This document shows positions 12,320 to 43,291 of a stretch of DNA of 64,000 nucleotides, in pieces (position 1 is the stretch's first letter; every line of letters starts with the position of its first letter). Source of the DNA: Desulfurivibrio dismutans (lineage in GTDB: Bacteria; Desulfobacterota; Desulfobulbia; Desulfobulbales; Desulfurivibrionaceae); contig NZ_JARGDQ010000005.1 of NCBI RefSeq assembly GCF_029210385.1, positions 1 through 64,000 on the forward strand. The letters are read 5' to 3'. The translations under genes and the position numbers were made by a program. The notes beneath the pieces were generated by a model, which saw only the letters and a program-made list of their open reading frames with translations, was not told the DNA's origin and did no database searches.

Positions 12320-12805
12320 TTGAAGGCAAAACTGATTACCGTCATCGGGGTGCTGCTGGTCTTCGGCCTGCTGGAGACCGTCGGGGTGGAGGCCCAGACC
12401 CGCCCGGTCCGGGCCGGCCAGGAAGAACTTGCCCACTCGGTCCGCCTGCGGGATAAGGAGCGAGAGCTTGCAGCCCGGGAGGAAAAAATTGACCGCCGGG
12501 AGCAGGAACTGGCCGAGATGGAAGCGGAGGTTCGGGGTGAACTGGAAAGCCTGCTGGAGTTGCAGCAGGAGGCCCGGGCCACCCTGGACGGCCTGACCGC
12601 CGCCAAGGACCAGGCCTTCCGGGATTTGATCCGGGTTTACCGGGAGATGCGACCGGCGCGGGTGGCGGAGTTACTCGATGAAATGGATGATCGTGATTCC
12701 CTGGAGATTTTGCGGGGAATGCCCAATGACCTGGTGGCCGATATCCTGCCCCGGCTGGAACGGGCCAAGGCGGTGAGGTTGAGCCGCCAACTCGGCCTCC
12801 TTTAG
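12320..12805 (+). CDS. MotE-like flagellar protein with MgtE-N-type helical domain
   Basis: 161 residues. An N-terminal hydrophobic segment (LITVIGVLLVFGLLETVGVEA) is probably a signal peptide ending near VEAQT. Next comes a long charged coiled coil (about 40-95), then an MgtE-N-like domain (RPARVAELLDEMDDRDSLEI...GMPNDLVADILPRL). This layout matches MotE, a periplasmic partner of the stator in some proteobacteria, often encoded after fliJ. The start is TTG with AGGTGAG upstream. A palindromic repeat begins right after the stop codon. The family is fairly clear; the exact function is by analogy. Confidence 0.82.
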   Translation: MKAKLITVIGVLLVFGLLETVGVEAQTRPVRAGQEELAHSVRLRDKERELAAREEKIDRREQELAEMEAEVRGELESLLELQQEARATLDGLTAAKDQAFRDLIRVYREMRPARVAELLDEMDDRDSLEILRGMPNDLVADILPRLERAKAVRLSRQLGLL

Positions 12806-12912
12806 GAAAACGTCCAGCAGCACCGCATCTTGCGGCGATCGACCCGGCTTGCGTACCAGTGTGCGCGGCGCCGGGCCGCTTGCCGCAAGCTACGGCACTG
12901 CTGGACGTTTTC
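12806..12912. repeat. Palindromic repeat, 107 bp (copy A)
   Basis: An imperfect inverted repeat starting at the base after the motE-like stop codon. Outer arms GAAAACGTCCAGCAG and CTGCTGGACGTTTTC are perfectly complementary. Inside them one arm reads CACCGCATCTTGCGGCGATCG and the other, reverse-complemented, TGCCGTAGCTTGCGGCAAGCG. The apex is GCGTAC-CAGT-GTGCGC. It is followed by a T-rich run and could also act as a transcription terminator for the fliJ operon. Same family as the repeats at 12969, 20534, 43288 and 52913. Confidence 0.92.
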
Positions 12913-12968
12913 TTTTTTTCTCCCTCTTTTTTCCCCCTTTTTCGTAACTATCCAGCTCATTCTGGCAC

Positions 12969-13075
12969 GTAACTGTTCAGCAGTGCCCCAGGTTGCGGTA
13001 AGCCAAGTCGGCGTAGCGTACATCAGGTACTCAAGCCGACCTGATCACCGCAAGATGGGGTGCTCTGGACAGTAA
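12969..13075. repeat. Palindromic repeat, 107 bp (copy B)
   Basis: A second, more diverged copy 56 bp after copy A. Left arm GTAACTGTTCAGCAGTGCCCC and right arm (reverse complement) ATTACTGTCCAGAGCACCCC pair with a few mismatches. The inner GTTGCGGT/CTTGCGGT blocks and the CGTAC-ATCA-GGTAC apex are as in the family. It does not abut a gene. Confidence 0.82.
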
Positions 13076-13354
13076 TCTTTTTTCTTTCCTGTTTTGTTCT
13101 TTCTCTTACCCTTCCTTTTTCTATTTTTTGTTCATGGCTTTTTATCAAAGATATTAGCGGTGGCGGTTCCTTGCTGATTTCTCTCTATTTATAGGGGATT
13201 TGCGGCAGCCCGGCAAAAATGTCCTGTTTGGACCTCGTGAGGACGTCAGGGGGCCGTTTGGGGTGGGGGGCAGGGGGTGGTTGAGTTTTTTTGTTTTTAT
13301 TTTATGTCATTATTACAGGTGTTTGGTTTATGTTGATGGTTTCTGTGTTGAGGT
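13076..13354. other. Gene-free T-rich stretch before the fliK promoter
   Basis: I see no gene here. The first 60 bases are very pyrimidine-rich, with several TTTTC runs, and the base composition is markedly lower in GC than the flanking genes. Together with copies A and B it makes up the roughly 550-bp gap between the two flagellar blocks. Confidence 0.6.
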
Positions 13355-19777: not shown

Positions 19778-22765
19778 ATGGATTACCGTTCCACCCTCAA
19801 CCTGCCGCAGACCGATTTTCCCATGAAGGCCAACCTGGCCCGGCGTGAGCCGGAGATGCTGAAAAAATGGGCAGAGGAGGGGCTGTATGAAAACCTCTGC
19901 CGGGCCACCGCCGATCGCCCCCTTTATGTGCTGCACGACGGCCCCCCCTATGCCAACGGTCACCTGCACATGGGCCATGCCCTGAACAAGATTTTGAAGG
20001 ACATCATCCTCAAGTCCAAGCGCATGAGCGGCTACCACTGCCCCTACGTGCCGGGCTGGGACTGCCACGGCCTGCCCATCGAACTTAACGTGGACAAGGA
20101 ACTGGGGGAGCAGAAGGCCGAAATCGACAAGCTTGATTTCCGGGAAAAATGCCGCCGCTACGCCGATAAATGGATCGCCGTGCAAAGCGCCGAGTTCCAG
20201 CGCCTGGGGGTGCTGGGCGACTGGCAACAGCCCTATCTCACCATCGACTACCGCTACGAGGCGGCAATCGCCCGGGAGTTCAACAATTTTCTCTTGAATG
20301 GCCTGGTCAGCCGCAGCCGCAAGCCCGTGCACTGGTGCGCCTCCTGCCGCACCGCCCTGGCCGAGGCCGAGGTGGAGTACGCCGACCAGACCTCCCCATC
20401 GATTTATGTGAAATTTCCCCTGCAACCGGCAGCGGCCACGGCCCTGGCGGAACGCTATCCCGAGCTTCTGGCGACCCAAGACGAACTTGATCGGGGACAG
20501 ATTTCAAATCTGTCCTCTGGGGCTAACCAAGACGGAAAAGGTTCGTCAGTGCCGCAGGTTGCGGCAAGCGGGCCGGCGCCGCGTACCCCAGTACGCAAGC
20601 CGGACCGATCGCCGCAAGATGCGGGGCTGCCGAACCTTTTCCTGGTGATCTGGACGACTACCCCCTGGACCCTGCCGGCCAACGTGGCGGTGGCCCTGCA
20701 CCCGGACTTCACCTATGCCGCCGTCGAAGTGAACGGCGAGATCCTGATCATGGCCGAGGAACTGGTGGAACAGGTGGCCACTACCTGCGAATTGACCGAC
20801 CTCCGGGTGCTGACCACCCTGGCTGCCGCCGACCTGCTGGGGCAAAGCTGCCTGCACCCCTTCATGGGGCGCGACTCCCTAATCATCGGCGCCGATTACG
20901 TCACCCTGGAAACCGGCACCGGCTGCGTGCACACCGCTCCGGGCCACGGCCGCGAGGACTACCTGAGCGGGCTCAAGCACGACCTGCCGGTGCTTTCGCC
21001 GGTGGATGACAAGGGGCACTTCACCGCCGAGGGCGGCCCCTACGCCGGCATGTTCATCCTCAAGGGCAACAAGCAGATTATCGCCGATTTGCGGCAGAGC
21101 GGCGCCCTGCTGGGGGAGCAGAAAATTTCCCACAGTTACCCCCACTGCTGGCGCTGCAAAAAACCGGTGATCTTCCGGGCCACCGAGCAGTGGTTCATCG
21201 GCATGGATATCCCGGCCAATATCGCCGGCGAGCAGACCACCCTGCGGGAAAAGGCGCTTAGCGCCATCAACGGCGCCGACTGGATTCCCCGCTGGGGCCG
21301 GGAGCGCATCCACGGCATGGTGGCCGGCCGGCCGGACTGGTGTCTCTCTCGCCAGCGGGCCTGGGGCGTGCCGATCACCGCCGTCTGGTGCCGGGACTGC
21401 GGTAAGGTGCTCAACGATGAAAAGATTGCCGCCAAAATCACCGAGTTTTTTACCAAGGAAGGCGCCGATGCCTGGTTTGCCCGGCCGCTTGCTGACTTTA
21501 TCGGCCCGGATGCCCGCTGCGCCTGCGGCTCCACCAACCTCACCAAGGAAGAGGACATCCTGGATGTCTGGTTCGACTCCGGGGTGAGCTACGCCGCCGT
21601 GCTGGAGCAGCGCGATGAGCTGCAAAGCCCCGCCGATCTGTATCTTGAGGGCAGCGACCAGCACCGGGGCTGGTTCCAAAGCGCCCTGCTGGCGGCGGTC
21701 GGCACCCGGGGCGCGGCCCCGTACAAGGCGGTGCTCACCCACGGCTTCGTGGTGGACGGCAAGGGCAAGAAGATGTCCAAGAGCATCGGCAACGTCATCG
21801 CCCCGAGCCAGATCATTGACCAGCACGGGGCGGAAATCCTGCGCCTGTGGACCGCCTCCGAGGATTACCGGGACGACATCCGGATTTCGGACAACATCCT
21901 CAAGCAACTGGCCGACGCCTACCGCAAGATCCGCAACACCGTCCGCTTTTTATTGGGCAACCTGCACGACTTCGACCCCGCCGCCCCCGGCTCCCCACCG
22001 GAGGCCGAGATGGACGAACTGGACCGCTGGATCCTGGCCCGCTTCGAGCGGCTCAAGGAAAAGACCGTAACCGGTTACGAAAAATTCGAGTTTCACCAAG
22101 TCTACCACGGCCTCTACAACTTCTGCACCGTCAGCCTCAGCGCCCTCTACCTGGACATCGTCAAGGACCGGCTCTACACCATGCCCGCCGACCACCCCCA
22201 GCGCCGGGCGGCCCAGGCGGTGATGTACGAGATCGCCGACGGCCTGCTGCGCCTGATGGCCCCCATCCTCTCCTTCCTGGCCGCCGAGGCCTGGGAGTAC
22301 CTGCCCGCCGATGAGCGCCGGGAGACATCGGTCTTCCTGGCCGCCTTCCCGGCGGCCCGGCCCCAACGCCTGGCCGACCAGGAACTGCTGACCAAGTGGG
22401 ACAAGATTCTCACCCTGCGCTCCGAGCTTACCCGGGCCCTGGAGATCGCCCGCCGGGACAAGGTAATCGGCCACTCCCTGGACGCCGAGGTGGTGGTGGC
22501 CGCCGATGGCCAGTGGGCCGAGTTTGTTAATGCCAACTGGGACACCCTGCAACTGGTGACCATCGTTTCGGTCATGCGCCGGGAGGAAACGCTGCCGGCC
22601 GAGGCCGCAAACATCTTCCACAGCGAAGAGATCCCCGGCCTGCAGGTCCTGGTCCGCCCGGCCCCGGGCGATAAATGCCAACGCTGCTGGATGCGGGTGG
22701 AAAGCGTGGGCGAGGACCAGGAACATCCAGCCATCTGCCACCGCTGCCGGGGGGCCATCGGGTGA
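19778..22765 (+). CDS. ileS: Isoleucyl-tRNA synthetase with an in-frame palindrome-encoded insertion
   Basis: 995 residues, longer than typical bacterial IleS (about 930-940). Class I signatures are HMGH (residues 64-67) and KMSKS (about 665). The editing domain begins with LVIWTTTPWTLPAN (about 289-302), and the C terminus has a zinc-binding CQRCW...CHRC region. Directly before the editing-domain strand, residues about 239-288 are encoded by a GGACAG palindrome plus a 109-bp family palindrome. They read as Ser-, Gly-, Pro- and Arg-rich low complexity. The frame stays open and all catalytic motifs are kept, so the enzyme is probably functional with an extra surface loop. lspA overlaps the stop by 4 bp. 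Confidence 0.96.
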   Translation: MDYRSTLNLPQTDFPMKANLARREPEMLKKWAEEGLYENLCRATADRPLYVLHDGPPYANGHLHMGHALNKILKDIILKSKRMSGYHCPYVPGWDCHGLPIELNVDKELGEQKAEIDKLDFREKCRRYADKWIAVQSAEFQRLGVLGDWQQPYLTIDYRYEAAIAREFNNFLLNGLVSRSRKPVHWCASCRTALAEAEVEYADQTSPSIYVKFPLQPAAATALAERYPELLATQDELDRGQISNLSSGANQDGKGSSVPQVAASGPAPRTPVRKPDRSPQDAGLPNLFLVIWTTTPWTLPANVAVALHPDFTYAAVEVNGEILIMAEELVEQVATTCELTDLRVLTTLAAADLLGQSCLHPFMGRDSLIIGADYVTLETGTGCVHTAPGHGREDYLSGLKHDLPVLSPVDDKGHFTAEGGPYAGMFILKGNKQIIADLRQSGALLGEQKISHSYPHCWRCKKPVIFRATEQWFIGMDIPANIAGEQTTLREKALSAINGADWIPRWGRERIHGMVAGRPDWCLSRQRAWGVPITAVWCRDCGKVLNDEKIAAKITEFFTKEGADAWFARPLADFIGPDARCACGSTNLTKEEDILDVWFDSGVSYAAVLEQRDELQSPADLYLEGSDQHRGWFQSALLAAVGTRGAAPYKAVLTHGFVVDGKGKKMSKSIGNVIAPSQIIDQHGAEILRLWTASEDYRDDIRISDNILKQLADAYRKIRNTVRFLLGNLHDFDPAAPGSPPEAEMDELDRWILARFERLKEKTVTGYEKFEFHQVYHGLYNFCTVSLSALYLDIVKDRLYTMPADHPQRRAAQAVMYEIADGLLRLMAPILSFLAAEAWEYLPADERRETSVFLAAFPAARPQRLADQELLTKWDKILTLRSELTRALEIARRDKVIGHSLDAEVVVAADGQWAEFVNANWDTLQLVTIVSVMRREETLPAEAANIFHSEEIPGLQVLVRPAPGDKCQRCWMRVESVGEDQEHPAICHRCRGAIG
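20493..20516. repeat. Short palindrome inside ileS
   Basis: GGACAGATTT-C-AAATCTGTCC is a perfect inverted repeat with 10-bp arms and a one-base centre. It closely resembles the palindrome at 18641. It is translated in the ileS frame as RGQISNLSS and lies 17 bp before the larger family repeat. Confidence 0.85.
20534..20642. repeat. Palindromic repeat, 109 bp (copy C), inside the ileS reading frame
   Basis: Outer arms GGAAAAGGTTCG and CGAACCTTTTCC are perfectly complementary. Inner blocks CCGCAGGTTGCGGCAAGCGG and, reverse-complemented from the other arm, CCGCATCTTGCGGCGATCGG match the family. The apex is GCGTAC-CCCA-GTACGC. Translated in frame it gives a stretch rich in Ser, Ala, Pro and Arg just before the editing-domain strand of IleS. 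The outer arm differs from those of copies A and E but stays self-complementary. Confidence 0.93.
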
Positions 22766-29029: not shown

Positions 29030-29602
29030 GTGGTCGAGACACAGCCGGGGGCGCTGCTGGATATTGCGCTGGTTCACTATCCGGTGTTCAACCGCCGCCG
29101 GGAGGTGATCGGCTCGGCGGTGACCAACCTGGATATCCATGATATCGCCAGAACCGCCAGGACATATGGGGTAAGAAGATATTATCTGGTTACCCCATAT
29201 GATGACCAGCAGACCCTGGTGGCGGAACTGCTGGCCCACTGGCTGGAAGGGCGGGGCGGGCAGTTGAACCCGGCTCGCAAAGAGGCTTTGGAGCTGGTAA
29301 GGGTGGTGCCGGACCTGGCGGCCCTTTACGATCGGGTGCGGACAGCCCGCCAGCAACGTCCTTTGGTGTTGGCCACCAGCGCCAGGAAGCAGCCGCTGAC
29401 CAAGGATTTTGGGGTGGTGCGGCAGGGGTTGGCCGGCGGGCAGCCGGCTTTGATTCTGCTGGGCACGGCCTGGGGGCTGGCCCCCGAGGCCTTGGCCGAG
29501 GTGGATGCTTTTCTGCCGCCCATTGAATTGGGTGGCGATTACAACCACCTGCCGGTGCGGGCGGCGGCGGCTATCATCCTCGACCGCCTGTTGGCCCGGT
29601 AA
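29030..29602 (+). CDS. Putative SPOUT RNA methyltransferase (Methyltrn_RNA_4 family)
   Basis: 190 residues from GTG 29030, chosen because GGGGGA lies 7-12 bases upstream; TTG 29006 is an in-frame alternative. The sequence (LDIALVHYPVFNRRREVIGS, AVTNLDIHDIARTARTYGV) and the C-terminal knot-like LILLGTAWGLAPE...PIELGGDYNHLPVR fit the family of Thermotoga TM1570, a SAM-binding SPOUT protein with unknown RNA target. The stop codon TAA is the first part of a palindromic repeat. It closes the rpsP operon. Confidence 0.82.
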   Translation: MVETQPGALLDIALVHYPVFNRRREVIGSAVTNLDIHDIARTARTYGVRRYYLVTPYDDQQTLVAELLAHWLEGRGGQLNPARKEALELVRVVPDLAALYDRVRTARQQRPLVLATSARKQPLTKDFGVVRQGLAGGQPALILLGTAWGLAPEALAEVDAFLPPIELGGDYNHLPVRAAAAIILDRLLAR

Positions 29603-29643
29603 ACGTCCAGCAGTGCCGCACCTTGCGGCACTGCTGGACGTTT
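29601..29643. repeat. Short perfect palindrome (copy D, core-deleted family member)
   Basis: Two perfect 20-bp arms (AAACGTCCAGCAGTGCCGCA and its complement) around a 3-bp centre. The outer 15 bases match copy A, but the inner 65 or so bases of the full element are missing. It overlaps the last two bases of the methyltransferase stop codon. It would form a very stable hairpin and could end transcription of the rpsP operon. The remaining 250 bp to rplS show no gene. Confidence 0.93.
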
Positions 29644-29896
29644 ACCTGAGTTGGTCCGGTTTTTTTGTATATGCCTGCCGGGGGGTGCTTTTAAAAAAAT
29701 CTTTGCGCCACCTGCCAAGCAGGTTGGCCGTTGACGCGTGATTAAGCAGTTACTAATCGTGTCTGGTCGGCGTGCCGCTTATTACGGCGCCGATAAAAAT
29801 AAATAGGTTGTTGTTTGGTGATATTAATATGTTAACCCTGGCCGCACCGGCGGTGTTTGTTTGGGGTTACAGTAACCGTAGCAAAAGGAAAAAGTA

Positions 29897-34851: not shown

Positions 34852-35825
34852 TGTTGAGAGGTAAAAAGGTAAGTGATCACAGGGGCCACAAGGTAAGCGG
34901 TCACGTGGTGCCGCGATATGCGGTGCCCCGTGACCGCTTACACAAAAAAACTTTGTCATCCCTCAGGGCTGCCGGTGGCGGGTGCCGGCCGCGGTGGCGG
35001 CCGGCGCTGCTGTTATTTTTGTGTTGGTTGTTGTTGTCCGGTTGTGCCGCCCGGGTACCGATGGGGGAGGAGTTGACCGGAAGGGAGCGGCACGTGGTTG
35101 AAGAGCTGTTCCTGGCCGCCATGGAGAAGCACCGGCACCAGGCCCAATGCCTGGATGCTGAAGCTGAAATCAAATGGCGCAGCTGGCTGCGCTCCGGCGT
35201 GCTGCCCGGTTACCTCCAGGCCATGGCGCCCAACCGGATGAAATTCGTCGGCCTTGATCCCCTGGGCCGTCCGGTCCTGGCCCTGAGCACCGACGGTGAG
35301 AGTTTCCGGCTGATCCTGGTACCCCAGGCCGTTGTCTACCATGGGCCCACCACCGCCGAGGCCTTCAGCCGACACTTGCCCGAGGGGCTGGCGGCGGAAA
35401 GGCTGCCGGAATCCCTGTCCGCCTGGCTGCTTGGCGGCATGCCCCTGGAGCCGGAGATCGTGGCGGTGTACCGGGAACCGGCAGGGCGGGGCTATTGGTT
35501 GGAGGTGGCCGAGCCGCCCCGGGCGCGCCTGCTTTTTGAACCGCTTCCTGATCCGGTAGGCGCTGGTGTGGTGCGCCGGATTCAGCTTTTCGAGCCGGAC
35601 CAGCGGCGTCCCACGGAGATCATTTATGATGACTACCGCCCGGTGCCCGGCGATACTGATGGCCCCGGCTGGTTGTTGCCCCACCGGATTGAACTGGATT
35701 CCCGCCGTCACCAGGGACTGAGCCTTAGCGTGGTGCTGTCCGATCTGCTGGCCGATTGTGCCCTGGGTTATGAGGATTTTCAACTGCCGATGCCGGCCGG
35801 ATACACCCTGGAAACGGTGGAGTAG
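34851..35825 (+). CDS. LolB-like/DUF4292-type lipoprotein
   Basis: 324 residues from ATG 34851. The lipoprotein signal core LLLFLCWLLLSGC is preceded by an n-region of about 50 residues, far longer than normal, and that stretch is encoded by a palindromic repeat (34893-34941). The true start may instead be the in-frame TTG 34953 after the repeat, although no good ribosome site is visible there. The mature part (ECLDAEAEIKWRSWLRSGVL, NRMKFVGLDPLGRPVLALST) resembles LolB/DUF4292 lipid-binding lipoproteins. It follows a TPR lipoprotein; a role in envelope lipoprotein or lipid handling is inference. Confidence 0.78.
   Translation: MLRGKKVSDHRGHKVSGHVVPRYAVPRDRLHKKTLSSLRAAGGGCRPRWRPALLLFLCWLLLSGCAARVPMGEELTGRERHVVEELFLAAMEKHRHQAQCLDAEAEIKWRSWLRSGVLPGYLQAMAPNRMKFVGLDPLGRPVLALSTDGESFRLILVPQAVVYHGPTTAEAFSRHLPEGLAAERLPESLSAWLLGGMPLEPEIVAVYREPAGRGYWLEVAEPPRARLLFEPLPDPVGAGVVRRIQLFEPDQRRPTEIIYDDYRPVPGDTDGPGWLLPHRIELDSRRHQGLSLSVVLSDLLADCALGYEDFQLPMPAGYTLETVE
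34893..34941. repeat. Short palindrome at the start of the lipoprotein gene
   Basis: Outer arms GTAAGCGGTCACG and CGTGACCGCTTAC are perfect. Inside, one arm has GGTGCCGC and the other, reverse-complemented, GGCACCGC: the same TG/CA asymmetry seen in the 108-bp family. It appears to be a shortened family member with the outer arm type of copy F. The 24 bp before it (GTAAGTGATCACAGGGGCCA) also recur before copy F. Confidence 0.78.
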
Positions 35826-42136: not shown

Positions 42137-43291
42137 ATGAGTCGGCAGACGGCAAGTGGGGCAGAGCTGCAGCAGCGGCGCTGTTATCTGGATAAGGCCC
42201 GGCGGGTGGTGGTTAAGGTCGGGTCGGCGGTGTTGACCACTGGTGAGGGGCTCAACTACGCGGTGCTGGATAATCTGGCCGCCCAGATCGAGCAGTTGCG
42301 GCGGGGTGGCCGGGAGTTCATTCTGGTCAGTTCCGGGGCGGTGGCCGCCGGCCGGCGCAAGCTGGGACTTGGTAACCGCGCTTTAAGCCTGCGCGAGAAG
42401 CAGGCCGCCGCCGCCGTGGGCCAAAGCAGCCTGATGCGGGCTTACGAAAAAATCTTTGAGCAACTGGGCGCCAAGGTGGCCCAGGTGCTGCTCACCCACG
42501 ATGCCTTTTCCCGCCGCGACCGCTATCTTAACGCCCGTAATACCATCTTTACCCTGCTGCAGTGGAACCTGGTGCCGGTAATCAACGAAAACGACACCGT
42601 GTCGGTGGAGGAGTTGCGGTTCGGCGATAACGACACCCTGGGGGCCATGGTGACCAACCTGCTGGAGGCTGATCTCTTTATCTGCCTCACCGACGTGGAT
42701 GCCCTTTACAGTGCCGACCCCGGCTGCAATTCCGGCGCTTGCCCCCTGCGGATCGTGCCGGCCATCACCCCTGAGATCGAAGGGATGGCTGGCGGCGGAG
42801 GCAGCGCGGTGGGGACCGGCGGCATGCTGAGCAAGGTCAAGGCGGCCCGGATGGTGGTTTCCCACGGCGGTTCGGCCGTCATCGGTCCCGGCCGGGAGCC
42901 CGACGTGCTGCTGCGGCTCTTTGCCGGCGAGGAACTGGGCAGTTTTTTTCTGCCTGCTCCCCAGAAAATCCCTTCCCGTAAACACTGGATAGCTTATACC
43001 TTGCGCCCCAAAGGTTACCTGGTGCTGGATGACGGGGCCTGCCGGGCCATCTTGGGCGGCGGCAAAAGCCTGCTGCCCTCGGGCATCATCGAGGTGCGGG
43101 GTGAATTCGGGCTGGGCGATCCGGTGCATTGCCTGGACCGGTCCGGCAAACCCCTGGCCGCCGGCCTCGTTTCTTATGATGCCGCCGCCATCCGGCGCAT
43201 TATGGGGGTGAAAACCACGGCCATCGCCGATATTCTCGGCTACAAAGACAGTGACGAGGTCATCCACCGCGACAACCTGGTGATCTTGTAA
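42137..43291 (+). CDS. proB: Glutamate 5-kinase
   Basis: 384 residues: an amino acid kinase domain (VVKVGSAVLT, LVSSGAVAAGRRKLGL, NENDTVSVEELRFGDNDTLG) followed by a PUA domain (about 295-375). It catalyses the first, feedback-controlled step of proline synthesis. The TAA stop is embedded in the left arm of palindromic repeat E, which separates it from proA. Confidence 0.96.
   Translation: MSRQTASGAELQQRRCYLDKARRVVVKVGSAVLTTGEGLNYAVLDNLAAQIEQLRRGGREFILVSSGAVAAGRRKLGLGNRALSLREKQAAAAVGQSSLMRAYEKIFEQLGAKVAQVLLTHDAFSRRDRYLNARNTIFTLLQWNLVPVINENDTVSVEELRFGDNDTLGAMVTNLLEADLFICLTDVDALYSADPGCNSGACPLRIVPAITPEIEGMAGGGGSAVGTGGMLSKVKAARMVVSHGGSAVIGPGREPDVLLRLFAGEELGSFFLPAPQKIPSRKHWIAYTLRPKGYLVLDDGACRAILGGGKSLLPSGIIEVRGEFGLGDPVHCLDRSGKPLAAGLVSYDAAAIRRIMGVKTTAIADILGYKDSDEVIHRDNLVIL

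Follow-up and report, generated by a model that had tools for sequence, protein, structure and literature searches.

How did an isoleucyl-tRNA synthetase (IleRS) come to encode some 50 residues that its relatives lack, and what kind of DNA supplied them? The question is raised by the ileS gene of Desulfurivibrio dismutans, which lies in a stretch of 64,000 nucleotides (contig NZ_JARGDQ010000005.1, positions 1 to 64,000; hereafter the window). Two palindromic repeats lie in the gene, one a GGACAG palindrome of 21 bp and the other a hairpin of 109 bp, and on sequence comparison the case is one of in-frame insertion, found only in this genome and in its only detected IleRS gene. The explanation that we favour, and consider very probable, is that a mobile hairpin and a small palindrome inserted in frame into ileS and were tolerated as a disordered loop. 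By this account a dispersed hairpin repeat, a miniature inverted-repeat transposable element (MITE) with IS66-like ends, and a second small palindrome would have entered ileS after the split from a sister genome. The insertion would have kept the frame and fallen, near the beginning of the editing (CP1) domain, in a loop that joins two beta strands and whose length already varies. Sequence and prediction contribute the identity of the repeat, the intact frame, its absence from 30 relatives and low confidence confined to the insert. The features of the locus are as follows.

19778 to 22765, plus strand: ileS, isoleucyl-tRNA synthetase, 995 residues, frame open over all 995 codons
20468 to 20629, plus strand: extra coding sequence, approximate (residues about 231-284; borders depend on the alignment)
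20495 to 20515, no strand: small perfect palindrome GGACAGATTTCAAATCTGTCC, 21 bp, a dispersed repeat separate from the hairpin
20534 to 20642, plus strand: long-hairpin repeat in ileS, its model orientation being the ileS sense strand
20630 to 20642, plus strand: right foot of the hairpin, CCGAACCTTTTCC, whose codons align one by one with CCGAATCTTTTCC (Pro-Asn-Leu-Phe) in the sister genome

The original prediction, made from the letters of the window, had described a family copy of 109 bp and a GGACAG palindrome inside ileS with the frame preserved. The frame is intact as predicted, and the product has the tRNA-synt_1, anticodon-binding and zinc-finger domains of an IleRS; this ileS is the sole IleRS gene match in its own genome at E <= 1e-50. 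The 109-bp family copy is confirmed by its arms (20534-20577 and 20599-20642, 44 nt each, 82% complementary), by its fold (-98.4 kcal/mol for 20485-20650 against -61 +/- 4.55 for dinucleotide shuffles, z -8.2, 0/200 as good) and by its matches to another copy in the window (84% over 109 nt) and to copies elsewhere in the genome, the best-scoring of which is 92% identical over 111 bp, with shorter stretches of others reaching 95%. A covariance model of the family, R1, also matches it at 20531-20645 with 127.9 bits, a score that is not independent, as the ileS copy is one of the 30 copies used to build the model. The GGACAG palindrome is likewise present and perfect, although it measures 21 bp and not the 24 bp first given, and while the two palindromes do stand together at the site, the smaller is a separate repeat with copies of its own (two window matches at <=3 mismatches against a shuffle mean of 0.00). 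The span originally claimed, 20490-20642, agrees with residues of about 238-289, and Ser, Pro, Gly and residues with charged or polar side chains are abundant in the extra segment of about 50 residues.

If these residues represent an insertion, relatives should show the site without it. In what follows the D. dismutans genome (2.84 Mb) is referred to as G000 and the other genomes of the genus as G001 to G004, of which G002 is the sister. An IleS match was obtained in 54 of 58 genomes, own included, and 30 of the 53 matching relatives were aligned; three rows of the alignment end at a contig edge yet span the site, and two retain untrimmed upstream residues. The alignment of relatives had been proposed as a check on lineage-confined insertion, and in it a 51-residue private run of G000 (residues about 231-281) is missing in 30/30 relatives; the extra sequence occurs in G000 only among the genomes examined, and its DNA is that of a dispersed palindromic repeat. 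The possibility that a stretch of similar length occurs in distant IleS proteins was not borne out, because of this absence and because the corresponding interval spans 42-69 residues in 64 distant IleS loci (80 were taken and 16 left out for want of a match to the interval motif) against 108 in G000. The estimate that the protein is about 55 residues longer than usual is roughly right: it exceeds G002 (946 aa) by 49 residues, a net gain of 147 bp, G001 by 52, and most of the complete IleS proteins in the alignment, which have 926-933 aa, by 65 when 929-930 aa is the reference. The IleS protein of G004 (locus L064) has four private runs of its own, of 14-27 residues and partly of proline-rich low complexity, and the covariance model rejected these as copies of the hairpin element.

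The closest comparison is with G002, which the IleS tree groups with G000 (support 0.997). It is syntenic with the window on both sides of the site, DNA identity on either side of the insertion being 87-89%, and the site itself is a short loop running straight into the LVIWTTTPWT strand. This arrangement bears on whether the insertion could be an artefact of assembly or joining at a high-copy repeat. The repeat is abundant and several G003 contigs begin or end at equal-scoring copies, as such an artefact would have it, but in G000 the repeat is flanked by the two ileS halves in their proper order and frame, with G002 synteny on both sides, whereas a misjoin would join unrelated loci; we consider it very improbable. 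Nor is the ileS copy a collapsed duplicate, since the best-scoring other copy shares only the 92% given above.

The same comparison bears on the age of the insertion. The element could have entered the common ancestor of G000 and G002 and later been deleted in G002, leaving a foot of CTTTTCC repeats. The G002 site does read CCGGACCTTTTCC and then CGAATCTTTTCC, near the element terminus with 3 mismatches in 13, and the collapse of a G002 copy is known at window position 43284. This course would require two events instead of one, however, as the loop of G002 is as long as that of G003 and the insertion is lacking in G001, G003 and G004, and the G000 and G002 codons of the stretch differ at third positions, as ordinary coding sequence does. 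We therefore hold it to be unlikely. Among 239,974 positions (120 kb, both strands) a resemblance to the terminus of this degree is found 81 times, counting element copies. Family copies terminate in CTGAACGTTTTCC, which is similar to the right foot in ileS, and this foot may be host sequence resembling the element end, because it aligns with CCGAATCTTTTCC in the empty G002 site. Insertion at such a host stretch is favoured over a scar of a lost copy in G002.

What the insertion means for the enzyme was approached with an AlphaFold model, for which the window IleRS was aligned with 39 IleS proteins from named records. The model has a mean predicted local distance difference test score (pLDDT) of 90.7 and a predicted template modelling score of 0.86, and its best structural matches are IleRS entries, matched over nearly the whole length (1qu3, Z 41.1, 872 aligned; 1qu2, Z 40.4, 906 aligned). 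The isolated editing-domain structure 1wk8 aligns across the insertion (model residues 205-450), which falls between strands 199-215 and 286-293 of that domain. As to the modelling of the loop that had also been proposed as a check, the AlphaFold model predicts a disordered loop in an otherwise ordinary IleRS fold. The insert is probably a tolerated disordered loop of the editing domain, since residues 240-280 are the sole segment (>=3 residues) with pLDDT < 50 and the rest matches solved IleRS structures. The peptide would presumably be made and kept in the protein with function unimpaired, and because its roughly 50 residues are predicted to be disordered, the enzyme is expected to fold and to work much as before. 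Retention of the frame is no great coincidence and calls for no special coding design, since 92 of the 183 frames on the model strand of 61 copies are free of stop codons.

It could instead be supposed that the insertion is not neutral, and that the mRNA hairpin, or a basic and polar loop beside the editing site, tunes IleRS synthesis or editing. The loop does lie in the editing domain, and the hairpin is nearly perfect and very stable although coding needs no pairing. A young insertion would be nearly perfect too, and there is no cross-species conservation that points to selection, so that a regulatory or editing role appears quite unlikely.

The hairpin itself belongs to a large family. A DNA search of G000 gave at least 47 matches (the best 40 of 200 candidates being scored), and 30 copies align end to end, with consensus ends GGTAAACG...CGTTTACC. 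RNAalifold predicts 43 pairs on these copies, 18 of them with compensated changes; 85 cells are changed on both sides against 16.5 when shuffled, and the covariation score falls from 0.232 to <=0.039 when the partner is slid by 1-3 columns. Matches to R1 number at least 64 each in G000, G001 and G002, 58 in G003 and 7 in G004, and 48 of the 58 genomes, own included, have one or more at E <= 0.001. Rfam gave 0 matches in the window at gathering scores; three matches in 20400-20720 (two microRNA families and VA RNA) lie far below the gathering score and were rejected as chance similarity to a long hairpin. No description of this repeat in Desulfurivibrio or Desulfobulbaceae was found among the open-licence papers searched. 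The remaining copies in the window are the following.

12802 to 12916, minus strand: family copy common to G002 (at 1399705), at the same gene end, with the stop codon TAG at its foot
12965 to 13080, plus strand: decayed family copy, 72.4 bits
29595 to 29649, no strand: short hairpin derivative without the element middle
34890 to 34944, plus strand: short hairpin derivative, 29 bits
43284 to 43399, minus strand: family copy; its terminal TAA serves the upstream gene as stop codon
52910 to 53025, plus strand: weak family copy, 43.6 bits

The copy at 12802 is identical to its G002 counterpart at 104 of 115 positions, and the intergenic sequence downstream aligns poorly. Collapse to a short hairpin without the middle is seen at window 29595-29649 and in the G002 orthologue of the copy at 43284 (1369136-1369455). 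Neighbouring copies occur as pairs of opposite orientation at loci L184, L192 and L197, and three stand in a row in one orientation at L017. The G003 contigs that start or end at equal-scoring hairpin copies (e.g., C183:19, C176:20, C155:20) suggest that the assembly was interrupted by a recent burst of copies.

Where copies lie relative to genes was determined with a codon score trained on 33 long open reading frames (ORFs) of the window, applied in G000 to 61 copies, which are high scorers and their neighbours and not a census. In 46 of these a coding frame on the reverse complement of the model ends -11 to +13 nt from the first base of the element, and 21 of the 46 end exactly at +2, where GGTAAACG supplies TAA; on the other strand 0/61 copies have a coding frame ending at the element. 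The same orientation prevails in G002, with 44 of 61 copies on stop codons (11/20 and 33/41 in two sets, against 0/20 and 2/41 on the other strand). Random window positions satisfied the stop-codon criterion in 62 of 4000 cases (1.6%). The best copies from 28 other genomes, judged at a looser threshold, are on stop codons in 13 cases and in none on the other strand. By these counts the hairpin family is placed mostly on stop codons, in one orientation, in two species. The statement that the family is intergenic in the rest of the window holds in so far as the four other full-length copies, which are those tested for context (12802, 12965, 43284 and 52910), lie outside open coding frames, but those at 12802 and 43284 are on stop codons. 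A reading of the copies as classic intrinsic terminators was considered and not adopted: the 40 nt downstream of the 46 stop-abutting copies have only a slight excess of T (46% at 15-19 nt against 21-34% in the remaining bins), and no regular run of T was seen by eye.

The ileS copy differs from this pattern. It alone has an open coding-like frame on both sides, 1/61 in G000 and 0/41 in the larger G002 set (1 of the 102 copies given this test), and its orientation relative to the gene is opposite to that usual in the family.

Signs of mobility come from G002, in which 10 of 20 copies are GTAA...TTAC units, most of them about 151 bp long, between 8-bp direct repeats that agree at 7-8 of 8 positions; the mean for shuffled pairings is 0. 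Filled/empty comparison with the window marks some of the duplicated G002 copies as clean insertions. By eye, six of these ten adjoin a stop codon with the orientation usual in the family, and in four the duplication contains the stop codon. Both GTAA and TTAC tetramers are present within the search range in 19/20 G002 and 41/61 G000 copies, and the ends of the ileS copy read GGAAAAGG...CCTTTTCC. Insertion of IS66 elements produces an 8-bp target duplication. One IS66 transposase match is present in each of G000 and G002, with GTAAGCGCTCA... ends nearby that share only GTAANCGNTCA with the hairpin family. The ends of IS66 elements are described as starting with GTAAGCG or GTAACCG (PMC12888890). 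The family may be classed as IS66-like MITEs, mobile now or formerly and with a moving enzyme that is only putative, because of the features that it has in common with IS66 elements and MITEs, its GTAA...TTAC ends and the 8-bp duplications in G002. The ileS copy may have arrived by such transposition. A stem-loop-replacing transposition, described for IS1272 (PMC5678879), was considered as a possible route to gene ends.

The small palindrome was followed separately. Exact-pattern places of GGACAGATTTCAAATCTGTCC number 9 in G000, 14 in G002, 1 in G003 and 0 in both G001 and G004. A GGGGACAG palindrome is nested in the apical loop of hairpin copies at G002:C1:1379663 and G000:C1:19088 (L220:1534-1669). 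Within the small palindrome, GGGGACAG conforms to GGGGWSAS, the motif of the TIRYT-associated palindromes (PMC3733652). An association with a RAYT tyrosine transposase is characteristic of REPs (repetitive extragenic palindromic sequences). Matches to Y1_Tnp are present in all five genomes of the genus, and around them the GGGGACAG motif was looked for; unlike the TIRYT palindromes, neither GGGGACAG nor CTGTCCCC occurs within the <=1.5 kb around the 9 Y1_Tnp matches scanned, out of 10 in the genus, and carriage of the GGACAG palindrome by a tyrosine transposase is unsupported.

Several observations weigh against an insertion of a mobile, stop-codon-preferring hairpin as the history of ileS. 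Target duplications were seen in only 2 of the 61 G000 copies, one of them A-rich, so that the evidence for mobility rests on G002. Among 79 x 22 (1,738) end pairs no clear target duplication emerged for the ileS copy, the best 8-mer pair being 7/8, about what chance gives, and no 8-bp duplication was seen on reading the flanks of the IS66 copies of G000 and G002; in this both differ from typical IS66 insertion. The right foot resembles host sequence in the G002 site, which could alternatively be the scar of a lost copy. The codon score behind the coding test was itself derived from ORFs of the window, and in an earlier, different version the left side of ileS was under the threshold while L016, L191, L193 and L196 were coding-like in one frame on both sides; these four have a stop codon in the element and may be two genes or one cut gene. 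Lastly, one genome carries the insertion, and its persistence therefore cannot be judged.

A broader proposal is made tentatively, as possible rather than probable: that the family is a mobile element homing to stop codons and the ileS copy a rare mis-insertion in reverse orientation. The element would enter gene ends in a single orientation, and the stop codon would either lie within the duplicated target or come from the GTAA end of the element. Across an order of bacteria the hairpin would then be retained as an RNA with a role in translation termination or at the 3' end of the mRNA. A host stretch resembling the element end would have guided the mis-insertion in ileS, and the open frame of the hairpin would have rescued it.

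A parallel had been drawn with the Rickettsia palindromic elements (RPEs), which are described as palindromic repeats of ~150 bp in frame within protein genes, nearly half of them lying in ORFs (PMC10969869). The ileS hairpin is like them in being long and palindromic (109 bp, 44-nt arms), in frame and absent from orthologues (0/30), and the ileS insertion works like an RPE insertion. The parallel holds for in-frame palindromic insertion but not for frequency, as nearly half of the RPEs are in ORFs whereas such placement is rare in the hairpin family (1/61 in G000, 0/41 in G002); the family is not RPE on the one distributional feature tested. Other palindromic repeats differ in further ways. 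The GTAG- and CGTC-tagged repetitive extragenic palindromic sequences (REPs) are reported to lie mostly just downstream of genes, with GTAG termini often providing a TAG stop codon, and to occur in ORFs that include tRNA synthetase genes of X. oryzae, E. lithoralis and S. alaskensis (Di Nocera et al., 2013, PMC3733652). These are 20-40 bp long with GTAG/CGTC tags, whereas the hairpin family has about 110 bp, GTAA...TTAC ends and a preferred orientation to the stop codon. Enterobacterial repetitive intergenic consensus (ERIC) and enterobacterial RU elements, repeats of 103-168 bp, have been described as fused in frame with ORFs (PMC2759123). Those described are end fusions with short or hypothetical ORFs, while the ileS insertion is internal to a large essential enzyme.

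In-frame palindromic repeats in protein genes are already known; what is added here is a stop-codon-preferring, MITE-like family of which one copy has turned into protein sequence. The ileS locus offers a clean filled/empty-site case, outside Rickettsia, of a noncoding palindromic repeat becoming protein sequence of an essential enzyme, with the sister genome G002 as the likely before-state. More surprising than the ileS case is the repeat family, with its oriented stop-codon hairpins, seen in two species and, among the best copies of 28 other genomes, in 13. Ribosome stalling has been reported for E. coli REPs that lie <=15 nt from stop codons (PMC12306157, citing Liang et al., 2015). The family opens to test a mobile element that may target gene ends and, comparable with the E. 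coli REPs, a stop-codon hairpin that may act on translation.

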